Part shown: positions 2,394-61,359 of the stretch, in pieces
How the letters are laid out: every line of letters begins with the position of its first letter
Numbering within the stretch: the stretch's first letter is position 1
DNA from: Nymphaea colorata
Taxonomy: Eukaryota; Streptophyta; Magnoliopsida; Nymphaeales; Nymphaeaceae
Assembly (NCBI RefSeq): GCF_008831285.2
Contig: NC_045150.1
Coordinates: 3,610,001-3,674,000, forward strand
Reading direction: 5' to 3'
DNA length: 64,000 bases
Program-made: the position numbers and the translations under genes
The notes under the pieces: model-generated
Database searches by the model: none
Seen by the model: the letters and a program-made list of their open reading frames with translations, nothing else
Told to the model about the DNA's origin: nothing

Positions 2394-4783
2394 TGTAATC
2401 ACCCCAAATTTTTCTAAAAGATTATGATGTTTTATCCAAGCATGAAACTCAAATTTAGGCAAAAGATTCAAATCTAAAATACAACTTTTAGATCCAAATT
2501 ATATCGAAAATCCAAGTTCAGATCCAAATCGATCATTTAAGACCCATTTGTCCATCATTTTGACAAAAAAACCTCTTTTTAGATGGTAATTTTAGTCTTT
2601 TTGAATGTACAAGACCCATTTGCCCTTCCTTTTGACCAAAAAATTTCCTTTTAGAGGGTGATTTTAGTCTTTTTGGGTGGATAAGACCAATTTACCCTTT
2701 TGACAAAAATTCTCCTTTTAGAGAGAGATTTTAGTCTTTTTGGGTGGACAAGACCAATTTGTCCTTCCTTTGACAAAAAAAATCTTTTTAGAAGGTGATT
2801 TTAGTCTTTTTGGATGGACAAGACCCATTTGCCTTTCATTTTGACCAAAAAATCTCCTTGAGCTCTCTCTCTCTCCCTCTTCCTCTTTCCATTTCTCTCC
2901 AACTTAGAGCAAGCTACAACCCTTTTGGAGGCATTATCTTGGAGCTTCACTCAAGGGGATCTTCAAGTGAAGGTGTTCATCTTCCTTAAGTCATTTTCTA
3001 ATTTAGACATCCAAGATGTTATACTCAAGTGCACCGAGAGCATGAGAAGATGAGATGATCTTTCATTTTCATGCTTGAGTTATGTTATCTCATTTCTTGA
3101 ATACATTCTTGTTGTTCTTTTGCTTCCTTTATTTTCCTTTTTTTTTCATTTCCCCATGACCATAAGAGATAGCTTTCAACTCTATTTTAGAGCCAAGAGG
3201 CTATGCTCAAGTACACCAGAAACATGAGAAGATGAGATTCCATTCCATAGTTGAATCATGTTCTCTTTCTTTTCTCAAATATTGTTTTGATATTATCCAT
3301 GCATGATATTATAATCTTTCTATTTACATACCAATGAACGGTGAGAATGAGGGTATGGCTTAGGGTTTTTTATTTTCATATTAATTTTTTAGGTTGGGGC
3401 TTGTCCAACCCGGGGAAACCATCACGAAAATGTACATGTTAAAATACATTTGCATGTCATTTTATGCTAGTTTCTTTCCTAATCACCCCATTAGTTACCT
3501 TAAAGAGTGCCTCAATGTGTTGCTAGTTTTTCTTTCATACCCAACAGTGGAGGAAACATATTCCCTTCTAATCAAACCATAAATATTATTTGTTTTTATA
3601 TAAATCATATTTTCCAAATTTTTTTCATAAGAAATCTCTCTAATGCGGCTTTTGAGACTTAGCTTAGGCTCTTGCATGAGTCCAAGCTCCCTTCCGGCCT
3701 ATATCAAAATTTGAAGTCGGCTATTTTCAAATCATTCCTTGATTTTCATATTCATGAAAACGTATGCATATATACATGTTATATACGTGTGCATGCATGT
3801 ATATATAAATATATATATGTACGTGTATTCTATTTTAAAATCTCTTTTTTCTCTTTCTAAAATGATCTTCTCTTCTCTACTTGATATAAACATCATTTTC
3901 GTAAGCTTTCATATATGTATACAAATACATATCTTTCTTTTTCAAAACATGTGATTTTATGATTTTCAAGATCTTTTTCTTTCTCTATATCCCTCTTGGG
4001 ATGTAGTCCTTCGTCTTTTCCACTCTTTCAATATCTTTCCATTTAAGATTTTAATTTTTTATTTACCGACTTCATCAAGACCACAAACCAAGTAATGACC
4101 CAATATTGGATTCATACTTGATGGTCTACAACCCCAATCCATTTTAAAAAACTTTTCCTTCATATATATGATATTTACGAAAACAAAAATCTTAGATGTA
4201 TGTTATGGTAGGAATGCATATAGATGAATGTTATGGTAGGAATGAATGATTTCCCCTTTTAATAACATAGAATCAATGCATCCATTCATTTTCACTCATT
4301 TAATATCACGTATGATCACAAGTACCTCTCCAAAAGAACTTAAGCAAGATGAGATGAAACTTTAACTAGGTAGTAACCGAATTAGAGCAAAATCTCAAAC
4401 CTACTTAATGTCTTAAGAGAATACTAAAATGATTTCAAAATGACTTTTCAAACTTTTTAATGATATTCACAAGGATTCCCAATTCTAGTTTTTCCCAAAA
4501 TGTCTCACATTCTCAAATGATTCTTCAATAATCTTTTCAAAAGTTTGAAACATCAAACTTTCAATATTTTTTCACATCGCATATAGAATAAAAAAAATGT
4601 TTAAATTAAAACGAAATGCATCAATAATAAACATAGCCTTTGGGTTGATTAACCCCGGTAAAGGCGCCGGGAATGGTCGACCCTCGTACCGACGGGCGAG
4701 TCCCTTTCTTTCCTATTTCAAAACGAAAACCTCATTTTTCTGCAGCAGTCCAAAACCAAACTAAAAATTTTGGGATGTAAACA
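2394..4783 (+). repeat. 5' LTR of Tat element (promoter deleted)
   Basis: Bounded by TG and CA. Positions 2560-2850 hold an array of about 70-bp units built on a TTTTAGTCTTTTTGG core. Two diverged units with the core 'aagaggctatgctcaagtgcacc' type follow near 3000-3230. Compared with the 3' LTR, about 150 bp are missing at position ~2860, at a TCTC microhomology. The lost piece includes the TATAAATA box and the start of the transcript region. A GC-rich conserved block with the CTCGTACCGACGGG motif lies at about 4655-4700, near the LTR end. Confidence 0.92.
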
Positions 4784-5724: not shown

Positions 5725-6776
5725 ACTTTGAAGAATGTGGGCTAGAGACAGTGGCAGCCGGAGGAATGCAAACAGTGGATGGAAATTTGATGCATGCAAT
5801 TGCCGAGCATTGGAATCTAAGGAGCTCCTCTTTTTGGTTTCTATGGGGAGAAAGAAATGACAGTGTTATTAGATAAATTCGCTGAAATACTAGACTTTCC
5901 CACCCCAACCTGTAACCCAAATGAACCATTAGAGAGACAATTCCTCATGAACCCAACTAAGGTTAATTCAAATGACTTTATAGGCCATTTTACTGGATGA
6001 AAAACTTGGCCTTTAGCAGAAAACCATGAAAATCAAAGCATCAACCTGAAAAATTTGTATGAAGAGTTTGGAACCTACGTTGAACCTTCTACCCTACCTC
6101 AAAAAGCCATAGGGAGAATTAAACATTGTATGATGCTCTGCACAGTAGGAGTGACCCTTTTTATCGATGGAGTGACCTTTTAAATGTCTGTATTGCCCAA
6201 CTTTTTTGGGTATGGCGGCATAGAGGGACCCGACACTTGTCAGTAGCAATAACAGCCTTAGCCTTCCTTTATCGAGGACTCACCTGCTTTACCATTGGAG
6301 ATACCGACTTCATAGAAGGATGCACATATGCTTTACAATTGTGGTTCCTCAAGCATGTGGGATCCCAAGCCAGTCTATTTAGAAACACTGACAGATCATT
6401 GACAACATTGGAGCAATACCATCGTTTGATCGAGCAATTGAATGAAGGAGAGATGATTTGGGAGTATTGTGTACCCCGATACACTCACCATCATCATGAG
6501 CGTACTACACTCTTGTGCCCTTACTTCATAGTTGATTATTGTGTTGATAGATGTATGAGACAATTCTCTCAAAGGCAGAAGATGGTCTCTGTGGATGCAC
6601 CAATTGGAGGTATTCCCAAATTTGACCTTAGTTCTCCTCAATGGATGACATTGTTTGCAGTAGCAAGACAAGAATGGAAGACACAGATATCATACACTTG
6701 GTTCACAGGCCCAGTGGTGAAGAAGGAATATGCTGAGTGGTGGGATGCCAACCGACCACCATCCATCCTTCCCTAA
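5725..6776 (+). pseudogene. Tat/Ogre upstream ORF (plant-mobile-domain-like), broken
   Basis: Coding traces begin near 5785 with AIAEHWNLRSSSFWF and shift frame to the MTVLLDKFAEIL segment (ATG at 5857). They hit TGA at 5998-6000, continue as KTWPLAENHENQSINLKNLYEEFG, and shift again near 6150 into a 216-residue open stretch (6126-6776) ending with DANRPPSILP. The beginning resembles the 'xWDPxxxxFRFxxxEMTxxLEEY' start of the plant mobile domain (PMD) found in ORF1 of Ogre elements. ORF1's role in retrotransposition is unknown. At least two frameshifts and one stop make this copy non-functional. The assignment rests on position plus weak motif similarity. Confidence 0.65.
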
Positions 6777-6931
6777 AAGTTTTATGTTGTCAACTTTGTA
6801 TTCTTTCTGTCGTTGTCATCTTTATTAGTATCTTTGGATGCAACTTTTGAAACTTATAATGCAATATGAACCTTCATTTTATCATCATTTTCGTCCAACA
6901 ACTCTATTTTCTTGTGTCATAAGGTGAATAC

Positions 6932-9723
6932 TTGAAAGCCAACGAGATGGTTGAAACTAGATCGCAAGCTAAGCAAACTCCTCAGAACGAGGCTTCATCC
7001 TCTGAACTCCGGCCAGAAACACTTGGCCTCCCAGCAATCGAGCCAGAAGCTTACCATATGTTCCGTTTGTTCATGGAGCGATTCATGAAAGAGCAAGAAG
7101 AGCAAAAGGCCTTGATGGTTACTCCAGAGCCGGATAATGAAAAGACTGCCAAGCAAAAAAGGAAGAAGAAAAACAATAAGTCTTCTCCTAAAGATCAGGA
7201 TGACGACTATTTGGGTTCAGATTCAACAACTAGTAAGGAAGAAAAACCTGAACTGTTTTCTCTCAAAAAGAAAAAGACAACAAAAAGAAGCAAAAAGGAA
7301 AAAAAATTATGGCAAAAAGCAGCTCACCTAGCCCTATCACCACTGGAAGTTCAGAAGAGAAACCTAAAAGGAAGAGAAAGCCTACAAATAAAGTCAAAAA
7401 GACAAAGAAGTACATCCCTAGCAATAGCTCAGATAGTGAGAGTTATGAAGAAAAAGTAAAGGAGATCAAGGGCAAGAAGAAAAAGACCAAGCCAGAATTG
7501 GTCGAATCAAATGATGATGAAAGTCCGACTAAGCGCATATTCTATGGAATGGAGAAAAGAATGAACAATCTTGAGCTTAGGGGGAAGGGAAAACGTTCAT
7601 ACTCATGTGAGGACTACTACCTTGGCATTGAAGGGGACGAAGACGTGAAAGGCTTGCCCAGAGAGTTCGCCAGATATGATGGAACCACTTGCCCGCATGT
7701 TCATCGTTCAACCTTTTTCAATGATTGCTACAAAATTCAGGCAAATAACAGAGCTTTGTTTCGCTATTTCCCAAGAAGTCTTGAAGGCAATGCTGCACAG
7801 TGGTACAAAGAAAATGTCAACCCAGTCGAACTCAAGGAATTTGACAAGTTGATTAACATGTTTGTGGAAAGATTCGAGCAAAATGCTCCCATGGCTCTGA
7901 CCCTCAGTAATATTTGTAGTCTCCGTCAGAAACAAGGAGAAAAGGCTCGAGAATTCATCAAAAAATGAAGAATCCAATGCAACAAGATGAAGGAGCCCAT
8001 TTCTGGGACACAAGCCTTGTCACTCATTATGAAAAATTTTGCCCAGCCCTTGAAAAGTCTCATCCGCAACGCCCCAATCAAGACTTTTGCTGAGTTGATT
8101 GAACAAGCAAACTCGATAGAAGAAGGAATTGAGGAAGGAGATTTTGATGGAATTATTGCTCCCAAGTACAAAGAAGATGAAAAGAAAGAAGGAATGACAT
8201 AGTTGCCTGCACACTTCATAGCCAATGCTGGCAGTAGAAAGGATCATGGCAACAACTACAAGCATGACAAGGAAGTCAGTTTCAAGAAGAACACACAACT
8301 TCCTAAAGGCAATGACGAAAGAAAAAACAAACACCCAGGCTGGAGTTATGACCGGAAATTCACTCCTCTCAGTCAATCTCGTGAGAAGATCCTGGAATAT
8401 CTCATTGCCAAGGAAACCATAGTCTTGCCAAGAGTATCTAAGCCTCCGAGAATGATGGGAGGAAATAAAGAAAAACTGTGTAAGTTTCATCGTGCCCCTG
8501 GTCATGACACTGAGGATTGTTTTGTCCTCAAAAATATTATCCAGGACTTCATCAATAAAGATCTCCAGATTGGTGATGATAGCATCCCTGAGGTGTTGAG
8601 GAATCCATTTCCTGACCATGGGAAGGCAGCAGTGGCCATTATCACCACAGGCACTCCACTCCCATATCATCTGCAAGAGCACATCCGACCTTGTGGTGGA
8701 AGTAGTTCACATAAAGTCAAGGTGACAGATCAAGGTGAGAAATCTTTGGATTTTATTGCTCTGATGAACGAAAAGATAGAAGGTTCATCCGAAAAACTTC
8801 CAATAATCCCAAAGACTTTTATCTTACAAAGCGGTGATGATGAATCATCAAATGACTCTCTGAATGAAGATTCATGCTACTGGGGTAAGGTCCTCCCCTT
8901 GGAAGAACGTATAGTTGAAGGAGATTGGATTCGACCCTCTAAGGACCAATCAATTACCTTTTCAAAGAAGGACCTCTCAAAATGGGGATATTTTCATGAA
9001 GATGCTCTTTACATCGTCGTCCAAGTCAATGGAATGACTGTGCCACATGTATTGATTGACGGAGGAAGTGGCTTAAATATTTACCCCGATCTCACGGCCA
9101 AAGCTTTGGGATTTCGTGAAGACAAATATCGTTTCGATAATACCAAGATCTACAGATACGATGGCCGAAGCATGAACAACAAAGGTACCCTCGACATGAA
9201 TGTGATCATTGAAAATACTGGCCATTGCATTGTATTTCACGTGGTAGATGTACCACCATCATACAACTTGCTTTTGGGACGACCTTGGATCCATCAAGTA
9301 CGAGGGATCTCATCCACTCTTCATCAATGCCTGAAATGGAATTTTGGTCAATCAGCTATCACTATCTGTGCTGAGGATTCGGTCGAGAGGTTGATGCAAC
9401 TCATGCTCCCTAGGCGAATTGATCTGGTGGATGTACCGAGTAGAAGAACAACAAAGGACAGACCTTTGGAAGAATGGATGCAGAACATGGAGATAGGGGA
9501 ACCATCTGGGAATGCTTATACTATTTCAAGCAATCATGCAAGTTACCAAGAACACCCATTGTATGTTCATTTCATGAAAATCCCTAAGGGTTTTCAGTTG
9601 CTTCTGAAAGGTGGCTACCGTCCATTCACTGGCCTCGGGAAAAATGAAGATGGTATCTTGCAACCTATTAGCATTTCTTTTCAGATGAACATGAGAGGAC
9701 TGGGATATCATGAGAGAATTTGA
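6932..9723 (+). pseudogene. Tat gag-protease, broken by stops and one frameshift
   Basis: The N-terminus (METRSQAK... type, with Lys-rich stretches) is in one frame to about 7310, then shifts into the frame used by the rest of the polyprotein. The capsid-like Retrotrans_gag part lies at about 7660-7990 (FARYDGTTCPHVH, YFPRSLEGNAAQWY). TGA at 7966-7968 replaces a normally conserved Trp codon, and TAG lies at 8200-8202. A zinc-knuckle variant CKFHRAPGHDTEDC is at about 8480-8522. The aspartic protease active site is LIDGGSGLNIYP at about 9052-9087. Downstream, GYRPFTGLGKNEDG (about 9615-9655) matches the G-patch-like segment that ends PRO in this lineage. The product would form virus-like particles and process the polyprotein. 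Confidence 0.88.
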
Positions 9724-9923
9724 AGAAGATCTTGGGGGCTAATAGTATTCACTTTTGTTTCAAAATCCTCCCATGAATTTTGTAATTTTGAACATCTTTT
9801 TTTTGGTCTCATGAGAGGATCCATTCTATGAACTAAGAACCTTTTTTTTATATATGCAAATGCAAGTAATTTCTTGTTCTCAATTTTAATTTTGTCCAAA
9901 TCTTTCCTTTATCCTCTTTACAG
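9724..9923 (+). other. Intron-like gap between PRO and RT
   Basis: About 200 bp of T-rich, non-coding sequence between the stop ending the G-patch segment (9721-9723) and the RT reading frame. It ends in a pyrimidine-rich stretch and TTTACAG (AG at 9922-9923). An ATG-led frame for RT starts at 9925. Ogre elements are known to carry a spliced intron at exactly this place. I see no convincing GT donor upstream of the stop; a possible one is at 9745. The acceptor is therefore better supported than the donor. Confidence 0.55.
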
Positions 9924-9924
9924 G

Positions 9925-12900
9925 ATGTCGGAACTCAATATGTCTCAGTTTATTCTTTTTCCTTGGAACTCCCCCTAGAAAGCATTTATCGAACAAGCAG
10001 TCAGTGAAATGGAACCTATGGCAATACCCGAGTCAGAATTACCAGAATTTACTCAGATTCAAAAACATGAACATCCTTCATCCTTGGTTAATAATCCAAT
10101 TGAAGAAATTAATATTGGAACCAGTGAAGATCCTAAAATTCTTCAAATTGGCACCAGTTTGTCAGTAGATGAGAAGAAAAGATTGGTGGACTTTCTTATA
10201 AGTAACCAAGAAGCTTTTGCTTGGACTTACGAAGATATGCCAGGCTTAGACCCCCAGTTGGTCGAACATCGTTTACCCTTAAATCCTAACTGTAAGCCGA
10301 TTAAGCAAAAATTGCGCAAGCTTGACCCTCGACTAGAAGGCCCTGTAAAAGAAGGACTAGAGGACTTGCTAAAGGCAAAATTCATTCGTGTCATTGATTA
10401 CCCTGAATGGTTGGCGAACATCGTGGTGGTCCCTAAGAAAAATGGCAAAGTCAGGTTGTACATTGACTTTCGAGACTTGAACAAAGCCATACCGAAGGAT
10501 GATTATCCTCTTTCAAACATTGATATGTTAGTAGACAGTATTGTAGGCCATGCAATGTTTTCTTTCATGGATGGATATTCGGGATATAACCAGATTAAAT
10601 TAGCAGTCAAAAATCAACCTAAGACCGCTTTTACTACACCTTGGGGCACTTTTTGTTACACGGTAATGCCATTTGGGTTGAAGAATGCTGGAGCAACCTA
10701 TCAAAGAGTCATGACTGCCATCTTCCATGACTAGATGCATAAAATCATGGATGCATATATCGATGACATATTGATCAAATCCAAGACGAGAGAAGATCAC
10801 ATTGAAACTCTTGCCCAAGTATTCAAGAGGCTTTTACAGTACAAGCTTTGTCTAAATCCTAAAAAATGTGTATTTGGGGTTGAGTTAGGCAAGCTCTTGG
10901 GTTTCATAGTCAGTAAGAAGGGGATTAAAATGGATCTTACCAAAGCTAAGGCAATAATCGATATGCCACCACCTACCAATATCAAGGAGTTGTGAAGCTT
11001 GCAAGGACGAATCCATTCCATCAGACGATTCATTTCCAATCTGGCCATGAGATGCGAGCCATTCAACCAGTTGCTAACGAAAGGTGTCAAGTTTGAATGG
11101 GGTTTTGAATGCCAACAGTCATTCGAAATTATCAAGAAATAACTTCTAAATCCACCAATTCTAAAACCACCAATGTTTGGTAGACAATTGCTACTTTACA
11201 TCACAGTGAATGAGTCAGCATGTGGCGGTTTTTTGGCACAATATGATGAAGGAAGTCGCATCGAACATGCAATCTATTACATTAGCAAGACTTTTGTTCA
11301 GTACGAAAAGAAGTACTCTCTAATAGAGAAAACTTGTCTGGTAGGTTTGGATGTGTCAGAAGTTGAGATATTATTTATTAGCTTGTGAGGTCAAGATACT
11401 CTCCATGCTAAATCCTCTCAAGTACATCTTGAAACAACCATTCATTAATGGGCGTATCGCCAAATGGCAAGTTTTGTTGATGCAATATGATCTTGGATAT
11501 GTGTCTCAGAAGTCAATCAAAGGACAAGCAATTGCAGATCAGTTAGTAGACTTCCCTCAGTATGAAGAAATCATAACAAATGATGAGTTTTCAAATGAAC
11601 ATGTACTAAGATTGGAAACAATTCCGACATGGAGGATGTACTTTGATGGGTCCAGAAATGTGATGGGAGCAGGCATAGGCATCTTACTCATCACTCTAGA
11701 AAACGAAATGATCTTGTACTCTTTGAAACTTGATTTTTCATGTACCCATAACATGGCTGAATGTGAAGCCATCATACAAGGACTTCGTTCTTTATTGAGT
11801 TTTCAAGTGAAAAGAGTGCATGTCATCGGCGACCCTCAGCTTATTATAAACCAAGTGAATAGAGAATGGCAAGTTAAAGGCGAAAAGTTGGTGCCATATC
11901 AAGAAATCGATACCTCCTTAATCTGTCAATTTGAAGAAGTACAATTGGCTCACGTAAAGAGAGAAGGTAACCCTATTGCGGATGGCCTCGCGAGCTTAGG
12001 ATCCACCATTACTTTTCGAACCAATAAAGCAATCCGTTCTTTTGAGATTGGAAGATTAGAAAACCCTGCTTTTGAAACGATGACGCATGTTCATCATATC
12101 CAATGGGGGAATACTTCTTGGTGCCATGACATCAAAAGGTACATTGAAAGCGGAGAATTTCCCAATAAAATGCCCAAAAATGAACAAAAAGCAATACAAC
12201 ATATGTCAGCGAGGTACTTTATTCTTGCAGGGGTATTATACAGGCGTGGATTTAGTACTGAATACTCTCGGTGCCTTGATGAAAATGAATCAAAGGAAGT
12301 AATCGAAGAATCACATCTAGTAGATTGTGGGGGCCATGTTGGTTACCAAACTCTCACCAAACAAATAATTCGAGCAGGGTATTATTGGCCTTCCATGCAA
12401 AAAGATTGTCACCAATTTGTCAAAAGATGCAAAGAATGCCAACTGCATGCTCCAGTGATTCATGCCTCAGCCTCTCACTTGCATTCCGTGACATCTCCTT
12501 GGCCATTTTCAATGTGGGCCTTTGACATAGTCGGACCGATATCCCCTAGAGCTTCTAACGGTCATAAGTATTTTCTTCTGCAACGGATTATTTTACCAAG
12601 TGAGTAGAAATCGTCACACTTAGAACAGTGGAAGGACGTCATGTAGTGTCCTTCATTCACAAAAATCTTCTTTGCAGATTTGGAGTCTCTTATGATATAG
12701 TATCTGACAACGGAACTCATTTCAAGAATGAAAAGATGAGGCAATTGTGCAGCAAGTACCATATCACGCACCATTTTTCAGCTCCTTATTACCCTCAAGG
12801 CAATGGACAAGCAGAGGCTACCAACAAGATCCCGATCCACATCTTGAAACGGACAGTAGAAACTGGAAGAGATTGGCATGAAAATATGCATAACGCTCTA

Positions 12901-13823: not shown

Positions 13824-16429
13824 TGTAATCACCTCAAATTTTTCTAAAAGATTATGATGTTTTATCCAAGCGTTAAACTCAAATTTAGGCACAAGATTCA
13901 AATCCCAAATACAACTTTTAGATCCAAATTAAATCCAAAATACAACTTTTAGATCCAAATTAAATCCAAAATACAACTTTCATATCCAAATTAGATCCAA
14001 AATACAAGTTCAGATCCAAATCGATCATTTAAGACCCATTTGCCCCTCCTTTTGACAAAAAAACCTCCTTTTAGAGGGAATTTTAGTCTTTTTGGGTGGA
14101 CAAGACCAATTTTCCCTTTCTTTTGACAAAAAATCTTCTTTTGGATGGTGATTTAAGTCTTTTTGGGTGGACAAGACCAATTTGTCCTTCCTTTTAACAA
14201 AAAATCTGCTTTTAAAGGGTAATTTTAGTATTTTTCGTGGACAAGAACCATTTGCCATTCCTTTTAACCAAAAAATCTCTTTTTAGAGGGTGATTTTAGT
14301 CTTTTTAGATCAAAAAAATTCAAATTTAGGGTTTGACTCCAAAATCTTCTATAAATACCCCTCATTTTCCCCCCTCTTGGGTAAGAGTGGCCCTTGGGAG
14401 AAACCCTAGAGTATTCTCACATGAAGACTTAGGGTTTCTCTTGAGCTCCCTCTTTCTCCTTCTTCCTCTTTCCATTTCTCTCCAACTTGGAGCAAGCTAC
14501 AACCCTTTTGGAGGCATTATCTTGGAGCTTCACTCAAGGGGATCTTCAAGTGAAGGTGTTTATCTTCCTTAAGTCCTTTTCTAATTTAGAGATCCAAGAG
14601 GTTATGCTCAAGTGCACCGAGAGCATGAGAAGATGAGATGATCTTTCATTTTCATGCTTGAGTTATGTTATCTCATTTCTTGAATACATTCTTGTTGTTC
14701 TTTTACTTCCTTTATTTTCCTCTCTTTTTCATTTTCCTATAGCCATAAGAGATAGCTCTCAACTCTATTTTAGAGCCAAGAGGCTATGCTCAAGTGCACC
14801 GGAAACATGAGAAGATGAGATTCCATTCCATAGTTGAATCATGCTCTCTTTCTTTTCTCAAATATTGTTTTGACATTATCCATGCATGATATTATAATCT
14901 TTCTATTTACATACCAATGAACGGTGAGAATGAGGGCATGGCTTGGGGCTTTTTATTTTCATATTAATTTTTGAGGTTGGGGCTTGTCCAACCCGAGAAA
15001 ACCATCACGAAAATGTACATGTTAAAATGCATTTGCATGTCATTTTACGCTAGTTTCTTTCCTAATCACCCCATTAAGAACTTAAAGAGTGCCTCGATGT
15101 GTTGATAGATTTTCTTTCATACCCAACGGTAGAAGAAACATATTCCCTTCTAACCAAACCATAAATATTCTATGTTTTTATGTAAATCATATTTTCCAAA
15201 ACTTTTTCATAAAAAATCTCTTTAATGCAGCCTTGGAGACTTAGCTTAGGCTCTTGAATGAGTCCAAGCTCCCTTCCGGCCTATATCAAAATTTGAAGTT
15301 GGCTATTTTCAAATCATTCCTTGATTTTCATATTCATGAAAATGTATGCGTATATACATGTTATATACGTGTGCATGCACATGACTATCTTTATTTGTTG
15401 TTTCTCTTTCTATGATTTAACATATTTTATAAACTCTCATATACATATATATAAATATATATATATGTATGTGAATTCCATTTTAAAATCTTTTTTCTTT
15501 TTGTAAAATGATATTCTCTTCTCTACTTGATATAAGCATCATTTTCGTATGCTTCCATATATGTACACAAATACATATCTTTCTTTTTCAAAACATGTGA
15601 TTTTATGATTTTCAAGATATTTTTCTTTCTCTATATCCCTCTTGGGATGTAGTCCTTCGTCTTTTCCACTCTTTTAATATCTTACCATTTAAGATTTTAA
15701 TTTTTCATTTGCCGACTTCATCAAGACCACAAACCAAGTAATGACCCAATTTTGGATTCATGCTTGATGGTCTACAACCCCAATCCATTTTAAAAAACTT
15801 TTCCTTCATATATATGATATTTACAAAAACAAAAATCTTAGATGTATATTATGGTAGGAATGCATCTAGATGAATGTTATGGTAGGAATGAATGATTTTC
15901 CCTTTTAATCATACAGAATCAATGCATTCATTCATTTTCACTCACTTAATATCACGTATGATCACAGGTACCTCTCCAAAAGAACTTAAGCAAGATGAGA
16001 TGAAGCTCTAACTAAGTGGTAACCGAATTAGAGCAAAATCTCAAACCTACTTAATGTCTTAAGAGAACACTAAAATGATTTCAAAATGACTTTTCAAACT
16101 TTTCAATGATATTCACAAGGATTCCCAATTCTAGTTTTTCCCAAAATGTCTCACATTCTCGAATGATTCTTCAAGAATCTTTTCAAAAGTTTGAAACATC
16201 AAACTTTCAATATTTTTCCACATCACATAGAGAATCAAAAAAATGTTTAAATTAAAACGAAATGCATCAATGATAAACATAGCCCTTGGGTTGATTAACC
16301 CCGGTAAAGGCGCCGGGAACGGTCGACCCTCGTACCGACGGGTGAGTCCATTTCTTTCCTATTTCAAAACAAAAACCTCATTTTTTTGGAGCACTCCAAA
16401 ACCAAACTAAAAATTTTGGGATGCAAACA
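13824..16429 (+). repeat. 3' LTR of Tat element
   Basis: Same family as the 5' LTR and clearly alignable over its length. It keeps the promoter region missing from the 5' copy. It starts with a short internal amplification of 'aaatccaaaatacaactttt' (13900-14000) and then has four units of the ~70-bp array (14040-14310). It ends CAAACA, followed by target-duplication copy ATGTC (16430-16434). Confidence 0.93.
14350..14357 (+). promoter_or_regulatory. TATA box in 3' LTR
   Basis: TATAAATA precedes CCCCTCATTTTCC and about 90 bp of sequence that looks like a transcript leader. It is the only strong core-promoter motif in the LTR and is absent from the 5' LTR because of the internal deletion. The solo LTR at 54.5-58 kb has a mutated version (TTTAAATA on the minus strand, near 57380). 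Confidence 0.6.
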
Positions 16430-18170
16430 ATGTCCAACTTAAGAATGAAGGAAGGAAGACGCAGACAGTATAAAGAGTGAACAACCTCATTCGCCAGGAT
16501 AACCGCGTCCTGCAAACGCCGACCCTTGATGAATGCAACTTGGAAGGTGTTAATGATAGAAGACATAACAGGCGCAAGCCGCAAGGAAAGCAACTTACCA
16601 ATAATCTTGTAAGGTGTGCCTAAGATGGAGATCGGGCGAAAGTGGCTGACGTCCGTAGGGTTAGGACGCTTAGGCACCAAGACACAGGTGGCTCGATTAA
16701 ATTCCTTAAGGAAGACTGAGTTCGAGGCAAATTCATCACAAAAGACAAACACATCAGCGCTACAAACCTCCCAAAAGGTGCGAAAAAATTTAGTAGGGAA
16801 ACCATCAATGCCAGGCGCCTTGCCAGAACTGAGGGTCTAGACAGCATTCTTGATCGCTTGGTGCAGGAAGGGCCGCTCAAGAGAGATCGCACATGAGACA
16901 AAGCGGGATGAGAGGGGAAAATCTGACAGTGGGGCATGAAAGCGAATAGACTTAGAATATAAATCACGAAAATGGACAGTCAAAGCCGGGAGAATGTCAT
17001 CACCAAGAAAAACTCTGTGGCCAATAACCATGGATTGGAACAACGTTTGATGGCATCTCTGAGATGCGACCAAGTGGAAGAATTTAAAATTCTGGTCTCC
17101 ATACGAAAGCCAACACAGCCTAGAATGCTGCTGCCAGTGGATGGACTCCCTAATCTGCCACTCCTGAGCCAAACACTGGAGACAAAGGAGGCGAGAAGAC
17201 TGATCCGCAGAAATAGTGTCAGAAGACTGGAGGGACAGGATCTCATCATCCCAATCGGTCACCTCATAAAACTTTCCGCTCCAGAAAATATGCTTCCAGG
17301 CAAAAATCTCCCTCCTGATGGAGTACAACTTCCACGAGAGCCTAAAAGTAGCCCACCTACCATTGATGACGTGCGCCCACCATTTAGGGACGACAGCCAC
17401 AAAGGACTCATCTCGGAGACACCAAAGCTCAAAACAGAACCTGGCACTCCCGGAACCAGCCCTACCCCGAAGAAGGGAAAGGAGCAGAGGAGCATGATCG
17501 CACAAGTGCCGCGGCCCAAGAATTAAGGAGGACGAAGGAAAAGCAGAGAACAGTTCGGGCGAGAGGAAGACCCAGTCCAACCTACGGAGAATGGGAGGAT
17601 TCCTATTGTTGGACCAAGTAAACTTGTCATTGCTCAGAGGCACATCAAAAAGACTGAACTCATCAATGAACGAACGAAAAGCCGACATAGGCGGACCAGA
17701 AGAGACAGGAGATGAAGAGTCACCAGGGTTAAGCAAACAATTGAAGTCCCCTGCCAAAAGCCAAGGTGAGGAAACAAGTTGTCGAGCACGATGCAGCTCA
17801 TCCCACAATTGGTCACGCAAGGCCCCAACGCAAGGGCCATAGACTGCAGTAACTAAGGTCAGACCATTGGGCGAGAGACCATTGAGAATGACCGAGATAG
17901 AGTAATAACCAACATGCACCACATCCCCCATAAGAAGAGGAGACCATGCCAGCAGGATGCCCCCAACGGCACCATTAGCCGGGAGAAACCCAAAGGACGG
18001 TTGACGCAACAAAATATGAACACAGGCATGAGAAATCACAGACAATTTGGTCTCAACCACGATAAGCAAGGAAGGTTCATGCTGACGCACCCAAGAACAG
18101 AGATATCTACGCTTATAACGGACTCGCAAGCCCCGTACGTTCCAACAGGCAACCCTTATGGAGAAACCAT
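16430..18170 (-). pseudogene. LINE ORF2, N-terminal part (endonuclease and start of RT)
   Basis: Read on the minus strand: WNVRGL near 18150, VETKLS, LLAGDFNCLLNP, DWVFLSPEL and the CDHAPLLL segment form an AP-type endonuclease/exonuclease/phosphatase domain (about 17480-18160) that would nick target DNA. The RT begins with GKAPGIDGFPTKFF (about 16800) and VPKRPNPTDVSHFRPIS (about 16640-16690). It is cut at 16430 just before the SKAFDSV motif by the Tat insertion. One in-frame stop (16837-16839) lies between endonuclease and RT; otherwise the frame is long and clean. No clear ATG is seen just upstream of WNVRGL, so the start is unresolved. Confidence 0.88.
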
Positions 18171-20400
18171 GGGAAGAGGTGTATGCCTGGCCACTCTAGC
18201 AGTACCGGGAGGGAGGATGGAGGCCGCAGAAGCCCCAATCCTACGCAATTCCCCCCGCAACCTAGTAAGGTTGGAGAGGGAGGCCGGTGCAACAGCGGCA
18301 ACAAATGAAGAACGTAGGAAATCAAGTTGTTCCTGAGGAAGCGTGACCTTAAGAGAGGCAAGCGCATCCGGAAGGGAGATGCCTAGCTCAACGTCTAAGA
18401 AGGGAGAAATGGGTGGCAACCTATCGGGCAAGAGAGGACAAATAGAAGGTCCAGTGGTGGGACCAAGAAACCGAGCAAGAGACAGAGGGGAGGACGAGGG
18501 GGTAGCGGTGGCTGCAGGATCAGAACACAAGGTGGGGGAGAAAGTGTCAACACAAGGGAGGAGGGGGAGGGCAGGGCTAACCGGGGGAAGGTGCAAGCCA
18601 GTGGGGTTGTGAGCACAGCCGTGGCTGAGTGCGGGGAACAATAAACACAAGGAAGGCAACTTGGCGACAAAGCAACTGTCAATGGAAACAAAAGAGAACC
18701 AGAGCAAGTGGGCAAAGGAGGCGGTCCTGGATGGTAGGGGGGCAAAGGGGGACTGATAACAAGGGTAAAAAGTAAGGAACATGCAACAAATGGAGATGGG
18801 CTGGCTGTGGGAGACGAATCGACAAAGGTCAAACCAACAGAGGCCGCAGTCAAGAAAGAGCAAGCAACAACAGTTACTTCAAGGGGGCGACCCCCTGCAG
18901 ACGGGCGGGCAGCCGACTGAGATGGTGCAAAGGACCTGATGACGCCACCATCCGGCGGGGCGGCAAGTAGCACCTCAGGGGAGCACAACGAAGAGCAGGC
19001 AGGGCACCGCTGAGTAGGCTAGGCCGCCTCCAGCGGTGAGGGAAGCAAAGGCGGGAGCTCGGCGGGCGAAGAAAGCTGGTGCGGCAAACCACCTGGGCTG
19101 AAGACCTGCAGGACCTCTACCGAGAAAGGCAGACCCCGTGCACCAGGAAAAGTAGGCCCAGGCCAAGGAAGTCTAAAAGAACCAAAGAAGATAGAGCTAT
19201 CATCCGAAGCAGGCAACTGAGAAGCAGCTGGTAGAGGAACTTGGACCCAGAGGGAGGATGCGACCGCTGCAAATCCATGCCGCCGACCGAAAAGTCATCG
19301 ATCATTCTGACTAGCAGGAAAATGGCATCGAGAACACATGGCTGCCTGACGGCCGTTCAATGTAGTACCATCTGACGCCACCAATGGCCCCATCTGATGC
19401 GGATAGAAGCGACGGACCGAAGGAGGTGACGAAGACTGGAAGCACGACGGGAAGATGGGATACACCAAGGTGAGGAAGCTGGCCTACCCACGGAGACCAC
19501 TTTGGGGAGCCTCGGTCGCAAGGAACAGTCACCCATCTGCAAAAGGAGAAACAAACATCACGCGGGTGGTAGAAACACCTGGAGGATGCCATGAGCGTCT
19601 TGCAGCTGAAGCGAGCCGGCGAAAACACAATTGAAGATGGTAGACTGCCAACTGAACGACAATGCCATAGCCTGACGAACCCCCTCAGGAGAGCAAAGAA
19701 AGCTGATTGCTACGGGACAAAACAAACGATTAATGGGGAGGGGGTTAACCAGTCTGATCCCACAAAGATTGGGACCACCAACCCAAACTCCCTGAGGTGA
19801 TCACAAAAGTGGAGGAGGAGGGAGGGTGGCCATAACACTAACCCCGGGCAAGAACAAAAACGCCAACAAGAGAAACAATGAAGCCAAGCACACGTGTGTG
19901 TCCACCCACTGCCAAAGGCAGCTGCATCCGGACCTGCAGGCTGGTGAGACACCACTTAGCGCAACGTGAGAGCAAGGCCCCGAAAGAGGACAGATCAGCT
20001 AAGAAAACACTTCAAAAGAAGAAGTGGAGCTGTAACAAGTATTTCAACAAACAGTTGCTGGGCAAGGAGAGGGCATAAAGAAGCAGGAAAGCAGCGCTAC
20101 AAGCAGAGGTGGTTGAGGAACGGGAGGGAGGAGGAGAGAAGCACCAAGGAGCTGACAGTGAAGCATGTGGATTGGATACGGGAGAAGAAGCGGCTGGAGG
20201 AGCACGCGATTGCCCTGGCCAGCAGCCGCAGGCAACGCTGAAGGGGAGGAGATGAGGGAGTGCAAATCAAAGAGGAAGAGGAACCAATGTGCGTTGTGAG
20301 TGGTTGGGGACGAGGTGCCGGCGCTCGGTGCTCCTGAGCTCTAACCGGACGAGCGCCATAGAAGGGAGGGAGCCTGGTGCAAGCCTCCACGAGCGAGAGG
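18171..20400 (-). pseudogene. LINE ORF1 region, strongly degraded
   Basis: GC-rich minus-strand sequence upstream of ORF2 with many broken Ser/Pro/Leu-rich frames. The stretch around 19560-19700 resembles the single-stranded nucleic-acid-binding (DUF4283-like) region of plant LINE ORF1. The stretch at 18160-18430 ends with LDFLRSSFVAAVAPASLSNL. No zinc knuckle is readable. The call rests mainly on position between the 5' CT-rich region and ORF2. Confidence 0.45.
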
Positions 20401-31474: not shown

Positions 31475-31711
31475 TAAAAGAATAACTCAGAAAATATTTT
31501 ATTCTTCTTAAGAAGTTATATTTCACGATGGTTTACAACTCTACATAAAGTTTACAAATGAGATAACTATGGTAATAACGTTAAAGGATATCAATACGAG
31601 ATTGCAGAAGATTTTCTGTTTCTGTATATCTGATCACAACCGAAGACTCATAACCATTTGCTATATTTTAGTCATTATCTCTTTTTCTTGACTTCAGGGA
31701 TTTCCTTAACA
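31475..31711 (-). repeat. 3' LTR of Copia element
   Basis: Aligns throughout with 37346-37578, sharing a block near TTTGATCACAACCGAAGACTC. It is preceded on the element strand by a decayed polypurine tract (CAGCTTGAGGCAGCG, expected GAGGGGGAG type). Confidence 0.9.
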
Positions 31712-34700
31712 CGCTGCCTCAAGCTGAATGGGGGCTCCACAACATTTGACTTGGTTCTGAAATTTCTGAAAAGATTAGAGTAGATTGCCTTTGTGAAGCC
31801 ATCGGCTAGTTGTCCATTCGTCCAAATGAATTTTATTTGAATGTGACTCTTGCTAACATGATCCCATACAAAATGGAAGTAGTCTTCAATGTGTTTGGTG
31901 TGTGCATGAAATACAGGGTTACTTGCAAGGTATAATGCTCCAAGATTATCACACCATAGTATAGGTGGCTGAATCACCTTTTCTCTTAGTTCCTGAAGGA
32001 GAGATTTTAGCCATCACACTTCTACAGCAGCACACGCGAGGGACTTGTAATTCAACCTTCGTGCTGGAACAAGCAACAATGCATTGTTTTCTAGAAGCCC
32101 AAGACACAACATTATTACCTAAAAATGTAACAAATCCCCCATTTGATTCTCGATCCTCTAAACTTTCAGCTCAATCAACATAGCGAAGATGCTAAGCTGC
32201 AATGATGGAGACACAACCAGTTTATGAGAATAGTGACCGGTTCCATTTAGACAGTGGATTCGCTTCACCATAGTCCAATGACCAGCCAAAGGTATATGCA
32301 TGAATTGGCACACTCTATTGACAACAAATGCAATGTTGGGTCGTGTACGAGTAGCATATTACAGGGGCCCAACTATGCTGCGATAGAGAGATGAATCATG
32401 AAATAATTGATCATCCTGTTTTTCAGTGTTAGTTGGGCTCATTGGAGAAAGAGATGCTTTGGATGTACTCATGTTTGCTTGGGGGATAATATTTTTGATA
32501 TATTGTTGTTGACATAGATATAAAACATTTGCCTTTTGAGTGACTTCAATTCTAAGAAAATAGGATAATTGTCCTAAATCCTTGACAAAAATTCTTGCCC
32601 AAGCTGCTGAATTATTTTGGAAATACAAGTGAAAGAGGACCCAGTAGTGATGAGATCATCAACATAGATTAACAAAAATAATTTTACTTCTCCTTTAGTG
32701 TAGATGAAGAGAGAAGGGTCGAATCAAGAAATATGGAATCCCAGATTTTGTAAATAACAAGTGAGTCGAGAATACCATGCTCTTGGTGCCTATTTGAGGC
32801 TATAGAGTGATTTGTCAAGTTTGCAAACATAGGTGGGATGTTGAGGATCAACGAAACCATTAGGCTAGGCCATGTAGACGTTCTCATCAAGATAGCCATT
32901 TAAAAATACATTGTCAAAGTCTAGTTGATGTAGATCCCATCCAAATTGCATAGCCATGGTAAGAAGGACCCTGATTGTCGTGGGTTTAACTGTGGGACTA
33001 AAAGTTTCTTGATAATTGATGCCAGCTTCTTGTAAGAATCCTCGAGCAACCAGTCATGTTTTATATCGAGCGATGGACCCATTGCCATTGCGTTTGAGTT
33101 TATAAACCCATTTAGAGCTGATGACATTGTATTCTGGTAGGGGTGGAACTAAGTGCCACGTTTGATTTTGTTGAAGCACAGTGAATTCCTTCAGCATTGC
33201 TTGTTTCCATAGTTTGTTGGTGGAAGCTTCTTTCCAAGTCATGGGTATCTTGAATTCGACTGCTCCAATAAGCGCCTTGGGAGTTAATGACCCAGTCATT
33301 GACCGAGTTTTCATTGGGTGAGTATGGTAAGATGGTCTAGAGATAGGTAGATCAATCTCTTTGTTACAGTTTGTCTCATGTATAGATGCTTGTGATAACG
33401 ATGGTTCATGATCGTCAATAATGGAATCTGCAAGATCTTGACCAATTGGAGATATTGCTCCCGCATCGAAAGATAGTAAAGTTGGTTGAGGGGCTGGAGT
33501 AATGATGTTGAGATCTTGATCCTGCAGAACTGGAGAAGTAATGTTGACATTAGGTAGAACGATACCTTGAGGAGGCAGGTTGTCAATATGATCATCGTCA
33601 ATACATTTTGCTACTTGATACCAGAATTGAATTTTCTTTTCTATATCATCTTTGGATAGCGAGACCTCATGAGAAGAAGGATATTCAAAGGGTGTCTCAT
33701 CAAATGTTACATGACGAGTCACAATAATTCTTTGTTCAAACTTTCATCAAAGCACAAATAACCTTTTTGTCTACTCACATATCCAAGAAAGATGCATTTA
33801 ACAGTCTTGGGTTGAAATTTTGAGAAATTGGTGGGGGTAAGAAGGGGATAACATTTTGATCCAAAAAATAGAAGATGATCATAGTCTGGTGGCTGTCCAA
33901 ACAATTTTTGAAAATGAGATTGACGATCTAACTTAATAGTCAGAAGCCGATTAATAATGTATATGCTTGTTCTACAAGCATCAACCCAAAAAGAATATTT
34001 TAATCTTGCATCATGCATCATACTGAGAGCAGTTTGTACAACATGTTTGTTCTTGCGCTCGACTATTGCATTCTACTCAGGGATATATGGACATGGAAAA
34101 CGATGTAAAATGCCATTCACCTCACAAAACTGTTGCAGCTCATTATTACAAAACTCTCCTCCATTATCTGATTGGATAGTAGATATGTAATATCCTAGTT
34201 GCTTCTTCACAAGTAATCTGAATTTTTTGAAGCATTCAGCAACCTCAGATTTGGCCTTTAATGGAAAAATTCAGGAGTAACGAGAAAGTTATCCACAATG
34301 AGCATAAAATATCTAAATTCGTCTCTACCCTCCACAGGAGCTAGTCCCCAAACATCTATATGCAAGATTTGTAATGGATGAATAGCATGAAATTTAAAAG
34401 TAGGGAAAGGCTGTTTGTGAGATTTTCCAATGAGGCATGATTCACACAATCTAGAACCTTTAGAACATTTTATTGAAACAATGTTATGCGAATTGAGAAA
34501 GTTAACAATGGTTTTACTTTTATGGCCTAATCGCGTAGGCCACAAAGAAAAATTCACAGAATTAGAACTTAATGGAAACCAACTACTGAACGTTGTTGCT
34601 CCTCTACTTGTGTCTTCTCTTGATGCAAAGATCAGATATAGTCCATTAGGCTGCTTGCCCCCGAAGTAGTACCTTCATCGTCTGCAGATCCTTTATAATA

Positions 34701-35880
34701 AATTCATGGGATAAGAACTCAAAAATGCAACTATTATCAGATGTAAACTTTCCCACAAATAATAAATTATGAGTGATTTTAGGAACATGTAATGAGTTCT
34801 TGAGCATAAAAGATTTCCTTCCATATTAATAGATAAGTCTCCTTTATGACAAATAGACAGATAAGAGCCATTACCGATCATAATGCCACTCGATCCAGCA
34901 TGTGTTCTTTTATTTTTCATCATGTTATCATTGGCATTGTATATTCTTCTGCAGTTTTTTTAGTGTTCATAGCAGAGAACACCTGAGGAATAACATAGCA
35001 TGATCTAGCAGAATGTCCCTTTTTGCCACAATAATGACATATAATAGGATTTTTTTGATAGCCTTTTGTAGAATCATAGTTGCATTGGGACTGATTGTTG
35101 GTGTTACATTGACCTTGATTTTGAGCTTGTTGTTCTTGTCTGTGTCCTTATAACCGACCTTCAATACAGCTGCCACCATAACAGTGATAAAATCCACACC
35201 CTCTTCCTCGGTTGTGGAAGGCATTGAATGCAGTGTGGTTCACCAACTGTGTTATATTTTGAGATATCTCTTTCAAGCAAAGGAGACTTGAGTAAATCAA
35301 GTCTTTTTTCTTGATTAAGAAGATCAACCAGCTCTACGAAGGTGATTGTTGAGTGGTGGGTTTCACCAGTAAGAAGAGTTATGAAGCTTTCATGTTTTCC
35401 TGGAAGGTTGTTCATAGTGATTTCTACAAGATCACTATCGGTTGTTTGTTGATCTACAACAGATAACGTGTCTGCCAACAATCTGATTTTCTCTAGATAT
35501 GTCCTCATACTCATAGACCCCTTTCTTATAAAATGCAGTTCCTTTTTGAGAAGCATGACTCGCAGTGGAGACTAGGAGCCATACGCTTTTTCCAAAGTAG
35601 TCCAATATTCTCTTGCTGATGACGCTCGAACAATTTGACCATGAGCAAAGTCATTCACTGTAGCTTTTATCCAGCTGAGAGAAAGACGATCAGATTTGCG
35701 TCGTTGCTTATACTCGGGATTGTGATTAGTTTTTCCATTGGTGGAGATAGTTTCTAATGGAGCCAAGATAGTTCCATTCACATATTCAAGAAGACCTTGA
35801 GATTCCATCACTGGTTCCATCTGACTTCTCCAATGAAGATAGTTATTTCCATTGAAATTAACAGATACTAAAGTGCTGAT
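31680..35880 (-). pseudogene. Copia gag-pol, broken
   Basis: Minus-strand order, right to left. Gag is at 34967-35875 (NGNNYLHWRSQ, then NNLPGKHESFITLLTG), with a CCHC-type knuckle region near 35000-35050. Integrase has a zinc finger at 34258-34557 (LGHKSKTIVNF, CESCLIGKSHKQPF, HIDVWG) and its core at 33719-34021. The RT start is at 33054-33722 (VISSKWVYKLKRNGNGSIARYK), with YVDD near 32655-32670 and LGQLSYFLRIEV at about 32530-32600. RNase H is at 31675-31977 (ILWCDNLGALYLASNP). Frameshifts and stops separate these blocks. Gag would build particles; Pol would copy and integrate the element. Confidence 0.9.
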
Positions 35881-36060
35881 GGCATTCCATTTAGGCCTGG
35901 GCGTCGGGCCGGGCCGCCGCCGGGCCGGCCCAGCCCAGCCTGGTATGGGCCGGGTCCGGGTCGCACTTTTTTTCTATCCGGCTCAACTTTAGTGAGCCTG
36001 GCCCGGCCCAATATCTTAACAAGCCGGGCCTGGTTATCACTTTCTAAGCCAGGCCGGCCC

Positions 36061-36172
36061 GTTAGGTAGGTCGACGTCAACGAGCAAGCAGAGGGAGGAG
36101 AAGGAGAGAAGGCCCCCGTTAGGTAGGTCGACGTCAACGAGCAAGCAGAGGGAGGAGAAGGAGAGAAGGCCG
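36061..36172. repeat. 57-bp tandem duplication inside the Pack element
   Basis: Two near-identical copies of a unit starting GTTAGGTAGGTCGACGTC, at 36061 and 36118. They lie between the subterminal GC-rich region and the captured gene fragment. Confidence 0.9.
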
Positions 36173-36373
36173 GAGGCGGCGATGGGGACGAGGAGCAAGA
36201 GGAGAGTGCATCGTTTCCTTCCAATCATTGCTGCCATCGAGGATCTCCGACTCAAGACCTCCATCATCGTGGCCAACAGCCCAACACCGCCGTCGCCGTC
36301 GTCATCCAGCAGATATCAAACGTCTGTGGAAAAGCAACATCAATCTTAAAAGAAAACAAGAAAATATAAGCAC

Positions 36374-36960
36374 CTGCATTCCACCCTTCTCCAATTTCGT
36401 TGCATTGGCCGACCTGGGAGCCATTCCAGGTACATAGGTCAGGTCATCGTAGAATTGCATCTTCAATGCCTTCAAACCTACAGCAAGCGAATGCATCTGT
36501 TCCAATCTTCTCTCTGGTTCCACACTCGAAACAAATGGCAGCAATCTCCTCTTCTTCTTTGAAGTCACCAATTGCCCTGATCGCCTCCTCCGTTTCCGAG
36601 CATCTACTGAGACCACAATTTCAATTCAATGCCAGTAAATAACACATGCAGAAGAGTACCGTCCTTTAGATTTATTCACGGGATAAGAGATAGGAGGAAC
36701 GAAGACAGAAGGCATACCGATTGAAAATTTCTCGACTTGGTTATCTGGTTTCTGTATGCGGAAGAAATTGATTCTTTTCGTTTGACTAAGCCGTAAGACT
36801 ACGCGACATCAACAGGGAAGCCAGATCAGAATACCATCTATTAGGAAATAGCAGAAAAGAAGCCTTAAATCATCTGCAAAGAGGGTTTCGCAATTACCTC
36901 GTGAAGTTTTCTGGCTAGAGCAGCTAGGGCAGAACCAAGGACCAGTCGGAACCCTAATCA
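36374..36960 (-). pseudogene. Captured fragment of an ATXR5/6-type histone H3K27 monomethyltransferase gene
   Basis: Three minus-strand exon pieces with introns kept. Exon A (36898-36960) encodes VPTGPWFCPSCSSQKTSR, the last zinc-binding Cys residues of a PHD finger, and ends at a GT donor (GAG|GTAATT). Exon B (36718-36798) encodes QTKRINFFRIQKP, matching the conserved QTKIIDFFRIQ segment (PCNA-interaction type motif), with GTATGC as donor. Exon C (36374-36603) includes KKKRRLLPFVSSVEPERRLEQ and DDLTYVPGMAPRSAN, with donor CAG|GTGCTT. In plants this order is specific to ATXR5/ATXR6, which place H3K27me1 to keep heterochromatin silent. The catalytic SET domain is absent. Intron retention shows capture from genomic DNA, not from mRNA. 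Confidence 0.88.
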
Positions 36961-37331
36961 TGGGGTCGGTACTGGACCCTCGTTGCGGCCCCTCCGTTGT
37001 TGCTTCTCGCGAGCGACCCCATGATTCCGGTGTACACGCCGTAATTGTTACCCGAGATCCCAGACGAGGACTCGAACCCTCTCAACATAGGCATGATCAA
37101 AACCGAGAGGGGAGACAGAGACAGAAAAAGGAGAGAAACAAAAGCAGAAAGCAGAAAAGAAAGATCAACAGAGACAGGACGAACGAAGAAGTGGAGATTT
37201 GCCGCCAGTTAACGGGCCGGGCTACTCGGGCCGGATCTTATCAGGTCGGGCCGGCCCGATGCCCAAGTCTAATTCCATTGAGTAACAAGGACAGAGGAGA
37301 AAGACGATGCTATTAGTCCTCTAAAAGAAGA

Positions 37332-37345
37332 GGGATCTGATACCA
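37332..37345 (-). other. Primer binding site of Copia element (tRNA-iMet type)
   Basis: On the element strand TGGTATCAGATCCC directly follows the 5' LTR. It matches the usual TGGTATCAGAGC primer site of plant Copia elements except at one position. Confidence 0.85.
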
Positions 37346-37578
37346 TAAAAGAATAACTCAGGTCAGAAGATATATTTCTCAATGGTTTATAGCTCTATAT
37401 ATATAGTTTACAAATGAGATAATTATGGTAACAACATTAAAGGATATCCTAATATCCATACTAGATTGCAAAAGATTTTCTGTGTTTGTGTATATTTGAT
37501 CACAACCGAAGACTCATAACCATTTGCTATATTTTAGCCATTATCTCTTCTCTTTGACTTCAAGGATTTCCTTTAACA
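37346..37578 (-). repeat. 5' LTR of Copia element
   Basis: Pairs with 31475-31711. It contains a TATATATA stretch near 37395. It is flanked on the outside by target duplication CTTCA. Confidence 0.9.
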
Positions 37579-37583
37579 CTTCA

Positions 37584-60662: not shown

Positions 60663-61359
60663 TAGGCCTGGGCATTGGGCCGGGCCGCCGCCGGGTACCC
60701 GGCCCGGTCGGGCCCGGGCTGGGCCTGGCCAGGCCCAATTTGGCCCGTTAAGGATTAATAATTTTTTTAACTTTTTTTGTCTTAATAAATCAAAAAACAA
60801 GCTGCGGCCCGGGCTGACGTCGACGGCCGCTTGTTGTGAAGGACATGCGTGACGGCTGCGACAGAGGGGTTGTTCATAACGAGCCTGCCGTCGACGGCGA
60901 CGCATGCCGTCCGGCCATCGACGGACTCAAGCCGCACCGGGCCCAGCGATCCCGGTGTCGTGGCGGTCGCCCGACATACCCGCCACATCCCTCGTGAACG
61001 CCTCCCTCAGAAACCGATCAAACCGGCAGCCAGATCTCCCCCTCCGGAAGAACCCTTCCGGCAGAAAACCTCCCCCAGCCCATCCGCCAGCATCCTCACC
61101 GCCTCCTCGGCCACAAATGGTGCACATGAGCGTTGGCCAGTCGGGCCGCTGCCCTAGCTGCAGGAAGGGGAACGGCGGTGGGCGTCGGGCGTGAAGAGAA
61201 AGGGAGAGGAAAAGGAAAGGCGGTGGGCGTCAGGCCGAGCCGAGTCGGGCCCGGGCCGAGACCCAGGATATCAGGCCGGGGCTGGGCCTGGGCTTTGGGC
61301 CCGACAGGCTGACCCGGGCCAGGTCTTACCGGGCTGGCCCGGCCCAATGCCCACCCCTA
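60663..61359. mobile_element. Pack-hAT-like element carrying a patatin-like gene fragment
   Basis: A perfect 8-bp target duplication GAAAGAAC (60655-60662, 61360-61367) flanks a 697-bp unit. Its ends are TAGGCCTGGGCATTGGGCCG on the left and TAGGGGTGGGCATTGGGCCG on the right (reverse complement). The ends and the GGGCC-rich subterminal regions match the element at 35892-37271, so both belong to one hAT-type family. The interior is GC-rich, unlike its surroundings, and carries host coding sequence but no transposase. Confidence 0.9.
60795..61135 (-). pseudogene. Captured fragment of a patatin-like phospholipase (pPLAIII-type) gene
   Basis: The minus strand reads VRLESVDGRTACVAVDGRL followed by VMNNPSVAAVTHVLHNKR (about 60820-60925), preceded by CRATATTPG. 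This is the C-terminal catalytic part of plant patatin-like proteins, which hydrolyse acyl lipids with a Ser-Asp dyad. The motif holding the catalytic Asp is normally DGG and here reads DGR. Upstream (61000-61135), in another frame, AEEAVRMLADGLGEVF-like sequence fits the middle of the same family. An internal stretch is missing and a small indel shifts frame near 60985. The GxSxG serine motif is absent. High GC fits an intronless pPLAIII donor gene. Confidence 0.82.

Follow-up and report, generated by a model that had tools for sequence, protein, structure and literature searches.

Plant transposons are already known to capture pieces of host genes, and several described systems resemble the locus reported here. 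The maize Ds elements Ds2-22 and Ds-l4-354 are nonautonomous hATs with exons and introns copied as DNA from a donor on another chromosome, and the same report calls gene capture rare in hATs (PMC3260210). Pack-TYPE elements, hATs included, combine terminal inverted repeats (TIRs), an 8-bp target-site duplication (TSD), and captured coding DNA; Pack-TYPE hATs occur in rice and maize and are reported to acquire further DNA, for which tandem insertion and re-mobilization is the proposed route (Gisby and Catoni, PMC8903248). In grapevine, class II elements that transduplicate intronic and exonic fragments are reported for all superfamilies studied, with gene examples in Mutator and CACTA elements (PMC2528002).

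Here we describe a Pack-TYPE hAT in Nymphaea colorata, located in a window of 64,000 nucleotides (the whole stretch of DNA analyzed). It lacks a transposase and carries copies of two host genes whose donors are both still in the genome, in line with the Pack-TYPE-like carriage of duplicated gene pieces proposed in an initial annotation. It is like the maize Ds elements in being nonautonomous and in the DNA-level copying of exons and introns from a donor on another chromosome, but differs in having two donors in one element, in a capture order that can be read from sibling elements, and in that one donor encodes a chromatin-silencing enzyme. TIRs, an 8-bp TSD, and captured coding DNA are shared with the Pack-TYPE hATs of rice and maize, whereas an internal replacement with a short overlap and filler would point to break repair instead of the route proposed for those elements. 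Like the grapevine elements, it carries introns as well as exons, though of other genes. Among the titles and abstract openings searched, in which subscription journals are thinly covered, we found no transposon capture of ATXR5/6. The locus is a well-traced hAT capture: a single genome holds the two donors, relatives that bear a transposase, the empty site, and the likely order of two captures. It bears on how cut-and-paste elements gain gene pieces.

A Nonautonomous Member of a Large hAT Family

The element, on C13 of the genome, spans 1,380 bp (window positions 35892-37271), and a perfect 8-bp duplication, ATTCCATT, lies flush against both boundaries (35884-35891 on the left and 37272-37279 on the right). 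The left hAT end (35892-36067, plus strand), common to transposase-bearing elements, has the terminal sequence TAGGCCTGGGCGTCGGGCC; the right end (37207-37271, minus strand) has TAGACTTGGGCATCGGGCC. The two terminal sequences form imperfect inverted repeats with 26-nt arms that are 85% complementary, each arm taking in one base of the TSD. Both the exact duplication and the inverted ends of the initial annotation are therefore present, the latter as an imperfect repeat. Allowing up to three mismatches, the end pattern has five matches in the window versus none in 100 shuffles; two are the element's own ends, two are the termini of an interval at 60663-61359, and one is inside that interval. 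The interval is a second member of the same family, 697 bp long and flanked by a perfect 8-bp duplication (GAAAGAAC); viewing its frames by eye, we recognized no gene piece.

We searched the host genome (407.8 Mb) with a 23-base end pattern allowing up to two mismatches. Further copies with the same ends, anticipated in the initial annotation, are abundant: the pattern has 1,061 matches (543 + 518), and the reversed control none. Among 30 end loci that were fetched, 16 have a paired end whose flanking 8 bases agree fully (11 loci) or with one mismatch, although taking the best pair per locus makes this count somewhat selected and the perfect match at locus L033 lies in GC-rich repeat sequence; the other 14 have no paired end.

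The family includes copies that carry a transposase. We read two search outputs for family ends near the hAT dimerization domain (PF05699). Of 30 fetched loci with a match to this domain, 16 are followed 1.1-1.4 kb downstream by a correctly oriented family end, two have such an end in another position only, and 12 have none, so some hATs of this genome are outside this family. In that domain search, 150 of 1,113 candidates were scored. Another genome search, with 40 of 148 candidates scored, gave 45 matches, among which we counted by eye at least 10 left ends with a PF05699 match ∼3.4-4.2 kb onward on the same strand. Transposase-bearing copies have perfect 8-bp duplications at both flanks at C2:20855887-20862705 (ACTAAGCG) and at C14:8474806-8480390 (CTAAAGAA; the first TIR base is altered), and one on C1 has a duplication matching at seven of eight bases. 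The transposase piece of a copy on C5 matches PF05699 and PF14372 in Pfam; a left TIR was not found for this copy. The element thus belongs to a large hAT family with transposase-bearing copies that share its ends, so its assignment to hATs, first made from short TIRs and an 8-bp duplication, rests on more than the duplication alone.

Captured Pieces of Two Host Genes

ATXR5/6 proteins are methyltransferases that deposit H3K27me1. On the minus strand of the element, a block of 646 bp (36312-36957) aligns without gaps to C1:14891555-14892200, with 27 differences (95.8% identity). A genome search with this block alone finds two places, the element and the C1 donor. In gene order, the block holds the final 60 bases of exon 1 (36898-36957; the end of the PHD finger, with WFCPSC), intron 1, exon 2 (36718-36798; the PIP-box region, QTKRINFFRIQ in the element and QTKIIDFFGIQ in the donor), intron 2, exon 3 (36374-36603; before the SET domain), and 62 bases of intron 3. 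Because introns are present, with GT..AG retained at both complete ones, the block was copied from DNA and not from spliced RNA.

Protein-level evidence for the separate pieces varies. Exon 3 matches ATXR6/ATXR5 crystal chains in the PDB (4o30_A, E 3.3e-24), which we take to be those of Ricinus. The PHD-end piece gives a weak match to the ATXR5 PHD chain 5vab_A (E 0.03) and scores better against AF-10 (E 3e-4), and the exon-2 frame alone has no PDB match up to E 10. Five frames of the element searched against Pfam gave no match to PHD or SET, the sole match being to a vitelline-envelope entry below the cut-off. What decides the identity of the pieces is the ungapped 646-base match to an ATXR5/6 gene of the same genome. 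In our gene model, the C1 donor reads as six exons encoding 390 residues. Pfam finds PHD and SET domains in it. Its residues 160-390 match the SET chains of ATXR6/ATXR5 with E 1.5e-113, and the match of residues 75-126 to the ATXR5 PHD chain has E 4.7e-20. As predicted, then, the donor is an ATXR5/6 gene that reads as intact.

Most of what the initial annotation had read from the element alone is borne out by the donor: the similarity to ATXR5/6 is real, the three minus-strand segments are collinear with the C1 gene, and an intact donor exists whose introns align without gaps. Its count of three ATXR exons is supported, with exon 1 being partial. The element shares these three pieces with ATXR5/6 genes but, unlike them, has no SET domain, no complete PHD domain (both are complete in the donor), and an altered PIP region; it is not a gene of the family.

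The ATXR piece was also an incomplete account of the content, because GRAS pieces on either side of the block had been overlooked. Both flanks match the same gene on C9, a single open frame with a GRAS domain (Pfam, E 2e-95) that is presumably SCARECROW-LIKE-8-like. An internal coding piece of this gene (36129-36313; donor L010:3373-3556, ∼86% identical, gapped) is on one side of the block, and the start codon, first codons, and 5′ leader (36961-37206; donor L010:3797-4056, 90% identical, gapped) are on the other. Both GRAS pieces and the ATXR block read in the same direction within the element (minus strand). The 240 donor bases between the two GRAS pieces are missing. One GRAS/ATXR junction has a 2-base overlap (36312-36313), and the other has a 3-base filler (36958-36960) that together with the next base creates an ATG in the ATXR frame. 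The element is a chimera of two donors. We considered whether an ATXR-carrying transposon had landed within the GRAS piece and rejected this: the GRAS sequence is not split but has 240 bp replaced, and the junctions have no duplication. A 57-bp unit in two tandem copies that are 100% identical (36058-36171) spans the junction of the hAT end and the GRAS piece; the sibling on C7 described below aligns with a single copy of it.

Order of Capture and Site of Insertion

In the genome, the left GRAS piece is located in the donor gene, in the element, and at three other places (on C7, on C6, and at C1:40894600), each of which adjoins a left end of the family. The genome search with the ATXR block found no ATXR sequence in these three siblings. 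Those on C7 and C6 retain GRAS bases within donor positions 3752-3796 that are missing in the element and are therefore unlikely to be descendants of a copy that bore ATXR sequence. The C1:40894600 copy has GRAS positions 3377-3441 only and is uninformative on order. The best reading of these comparisons is that GRAS capture is the older event and that ATXR was a later addition on the way to the present element. The left GRAS break points are nearly equal (3555 for the C7 sibling and 3556 for the element), which allows for an older, shared gap at that position. In the C7 and C6 siblings (L011 and L012), two short GRAS pieces enclose a further block that both siblings share and that is present in part in locus L021.

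The element is inserted in an older retroelement (31511-37579, minus strand) that we take to be of copia type, with LTR matches at 31511-31712 and 37365-37579 that are 84.7% identical. It sits between the 5′ LTR and a presumed gag, and there is a putative primer-binding site near 37339; the ATXR block reads in the same direction as the copia element. In a related copia copy at locus L014, the same site has no insert and the target is present once, as ATTCCACT, with seven of eight bases the same; the left flank is 87% identical, and the right flank, compared over 59 bases, 85%. This clean empty site shows that a past insertion occurred here, and the alternative that the exons are at this place without the TIRs and duplication does not describe the related copy. 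Another member of the family, of 845 bp with TSD ATCCCAAT, is at L014:1139-1983, near the empty-site copia copy (300-650) and apparently inside it.

The locus is very probably a nonautonomous Pack-TYPE hAT that captured GRAS sequence, was patched with ATXR sequence, inserted into an old copia element, and is now decaying. We propose that an ancestor with the ends of the transposase-bearing family acquired the GRAS piece, which is common to four elements. A break inside this piece would then have been repaired by copying in 646 bp of ATXR5/6 where 240 bp of GRAS had been; the replacement, 2-bp overlap, and 3-nt filler are observed features, whereas the order of events and template switching during break repair are our proposal. 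Transposase, presumably supplied in trans, would have moved the chimera into the copia element, a move recorded by the 8-bp duplication and the empty relative. The present element would be methylated and decaying and have no protein function, as the CpG-biased changes described below suggest, and at most it might give rise to small RNAs that match ATXR5/6.

Divergence, Coding State, and Rival Readings

Relative to the donor, exons of the block (15 differences in 371 bases) have diverged like introns (12 in 275; p 0.84), and 10 of the 27 differences are at CpG bases of the donor (p 7e-5). The ratio of nonsynonymous to synonymous changes is 9:6 where 11.6:3.4 would be expected (p 0.10). This hints weakly at constraint and counts against decay, although some of the changes are on the donor side. 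At P182S, for example, the element matches the solved ATXR6 chain and the donor differs, which suggests that the donor has probably changed too. In the PIP region, QTKIIDFF of the donor corresponds to QTKRINFF in the element, with R in place of I and N in place of D. The consensus of the PCNA-interacting (PIP) motif is Qxx[ILM]xx[FY][FY]; scored against this consensus, the element has no PIP motif. Given the similar divergence of exons and introns, the CpG-biased changes, and the absence of SET, the ATXR piece is most likely a silent, decaying fragment without protein function. The CpG bias also makes it most likely that the element is methylated.

Three other readings were weighed. That the locus is an ordinary segmental duplication or a retrocopy of ATXR5/6 near GC-rich sequence, with no transposon capture, is scarcely conceivable. 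A plain duplication would fit a gene fragment that bears introns, but the match ends within GRAS pieces, these in turn end within TSD-flanked hAT ends, and the related copia copy has a clean empty site; a retrocopy is rejected because of the introns. A truncated ATXR-like protein that interferes with ATXR5/6 is highly improbable. The junction-made ATG opens a frame of 148 codons (PHD end, PIP region, and pre-SET stretch), both introns have intact splice pairs, and an LTR is upstream in the same direction. Against this, SET is absent, only the tail of PHD remains, the PIP motif is altered, exons diverge as fast as introns, and a GRAS frame of 46 codons precedes the ATXR frame and overlaps its start. 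This GRAS frame ends at the junction, and an in-frame GRAS-ATXR fusion protein was rejected on that account.

The initial annotation had raised the possibility that RNAs from the element act on the host gene, and one of the donors, being a gene for transposon silencing, makes the locus a natural test case for the idea of epigenetic conflict. Silencing by ATXR5/6 is reported to be dose sensitive in Arabidopsis, where derepression of transposons in atxr5/6 hypomorphs correlates inversely with ATXR6 transcript (PMC8784105). Crosstalk of siRNAs from captured pieces is discussed for B. napus (PMC11986588), and a review reports it for maize (PMC13317346). Block and donor are identical in 213 of 623 24-mers and 247 of 626 21-mers, and feedback of small RNAs on ATXR5/6 is possible on this similarity. 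Nevertheless, a single element carries the ATXR block, in sense orientation with copia, so that read-through from the LTR would be expected to give sense, not antisense, ATXR RNA. It is very unlikely that 24-nt or 21-22-nt RNAs against the element also target the intact ATXR5/6 gene, reduce its expression, and loosen repression of transposons. We likewise regard it as very unlikely that small RNAs against this copy down-regulate the dose-sensitive gene and thereby weaken H3K27me1 at transposons generally. Compared with these readings, that of a silent fragment in a Pack-TYPE hAT is preferred, and the presence of a silencing gene among many captured genes may be chance.

Other Captures and Neighboring Elements

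We viewed the frames of ten family members and searched those of five against Pfam. Loci L040 and L045 have a similar piece resembling short-chain dehydrogenases (E 2e-4 and 8e-3, below the Pfam cut-off), perhaps from one capture. Frames of L023, L024, and L015 had no Pfam match; that of L023, the sole member searched against the PDB, has a piece resembling alpha/beta-hydrolases (5hk8_A, E 2.7e-5). Judging from these similarities, gene capture seems to have been repeated in this hAT family. Elsewhere in the window, frames at 1076-2398, 16378-18195, and 6123-12607 resemble, by motifs that we take to be diagnostic, proteins of LINE and gypsy-type retroelements.
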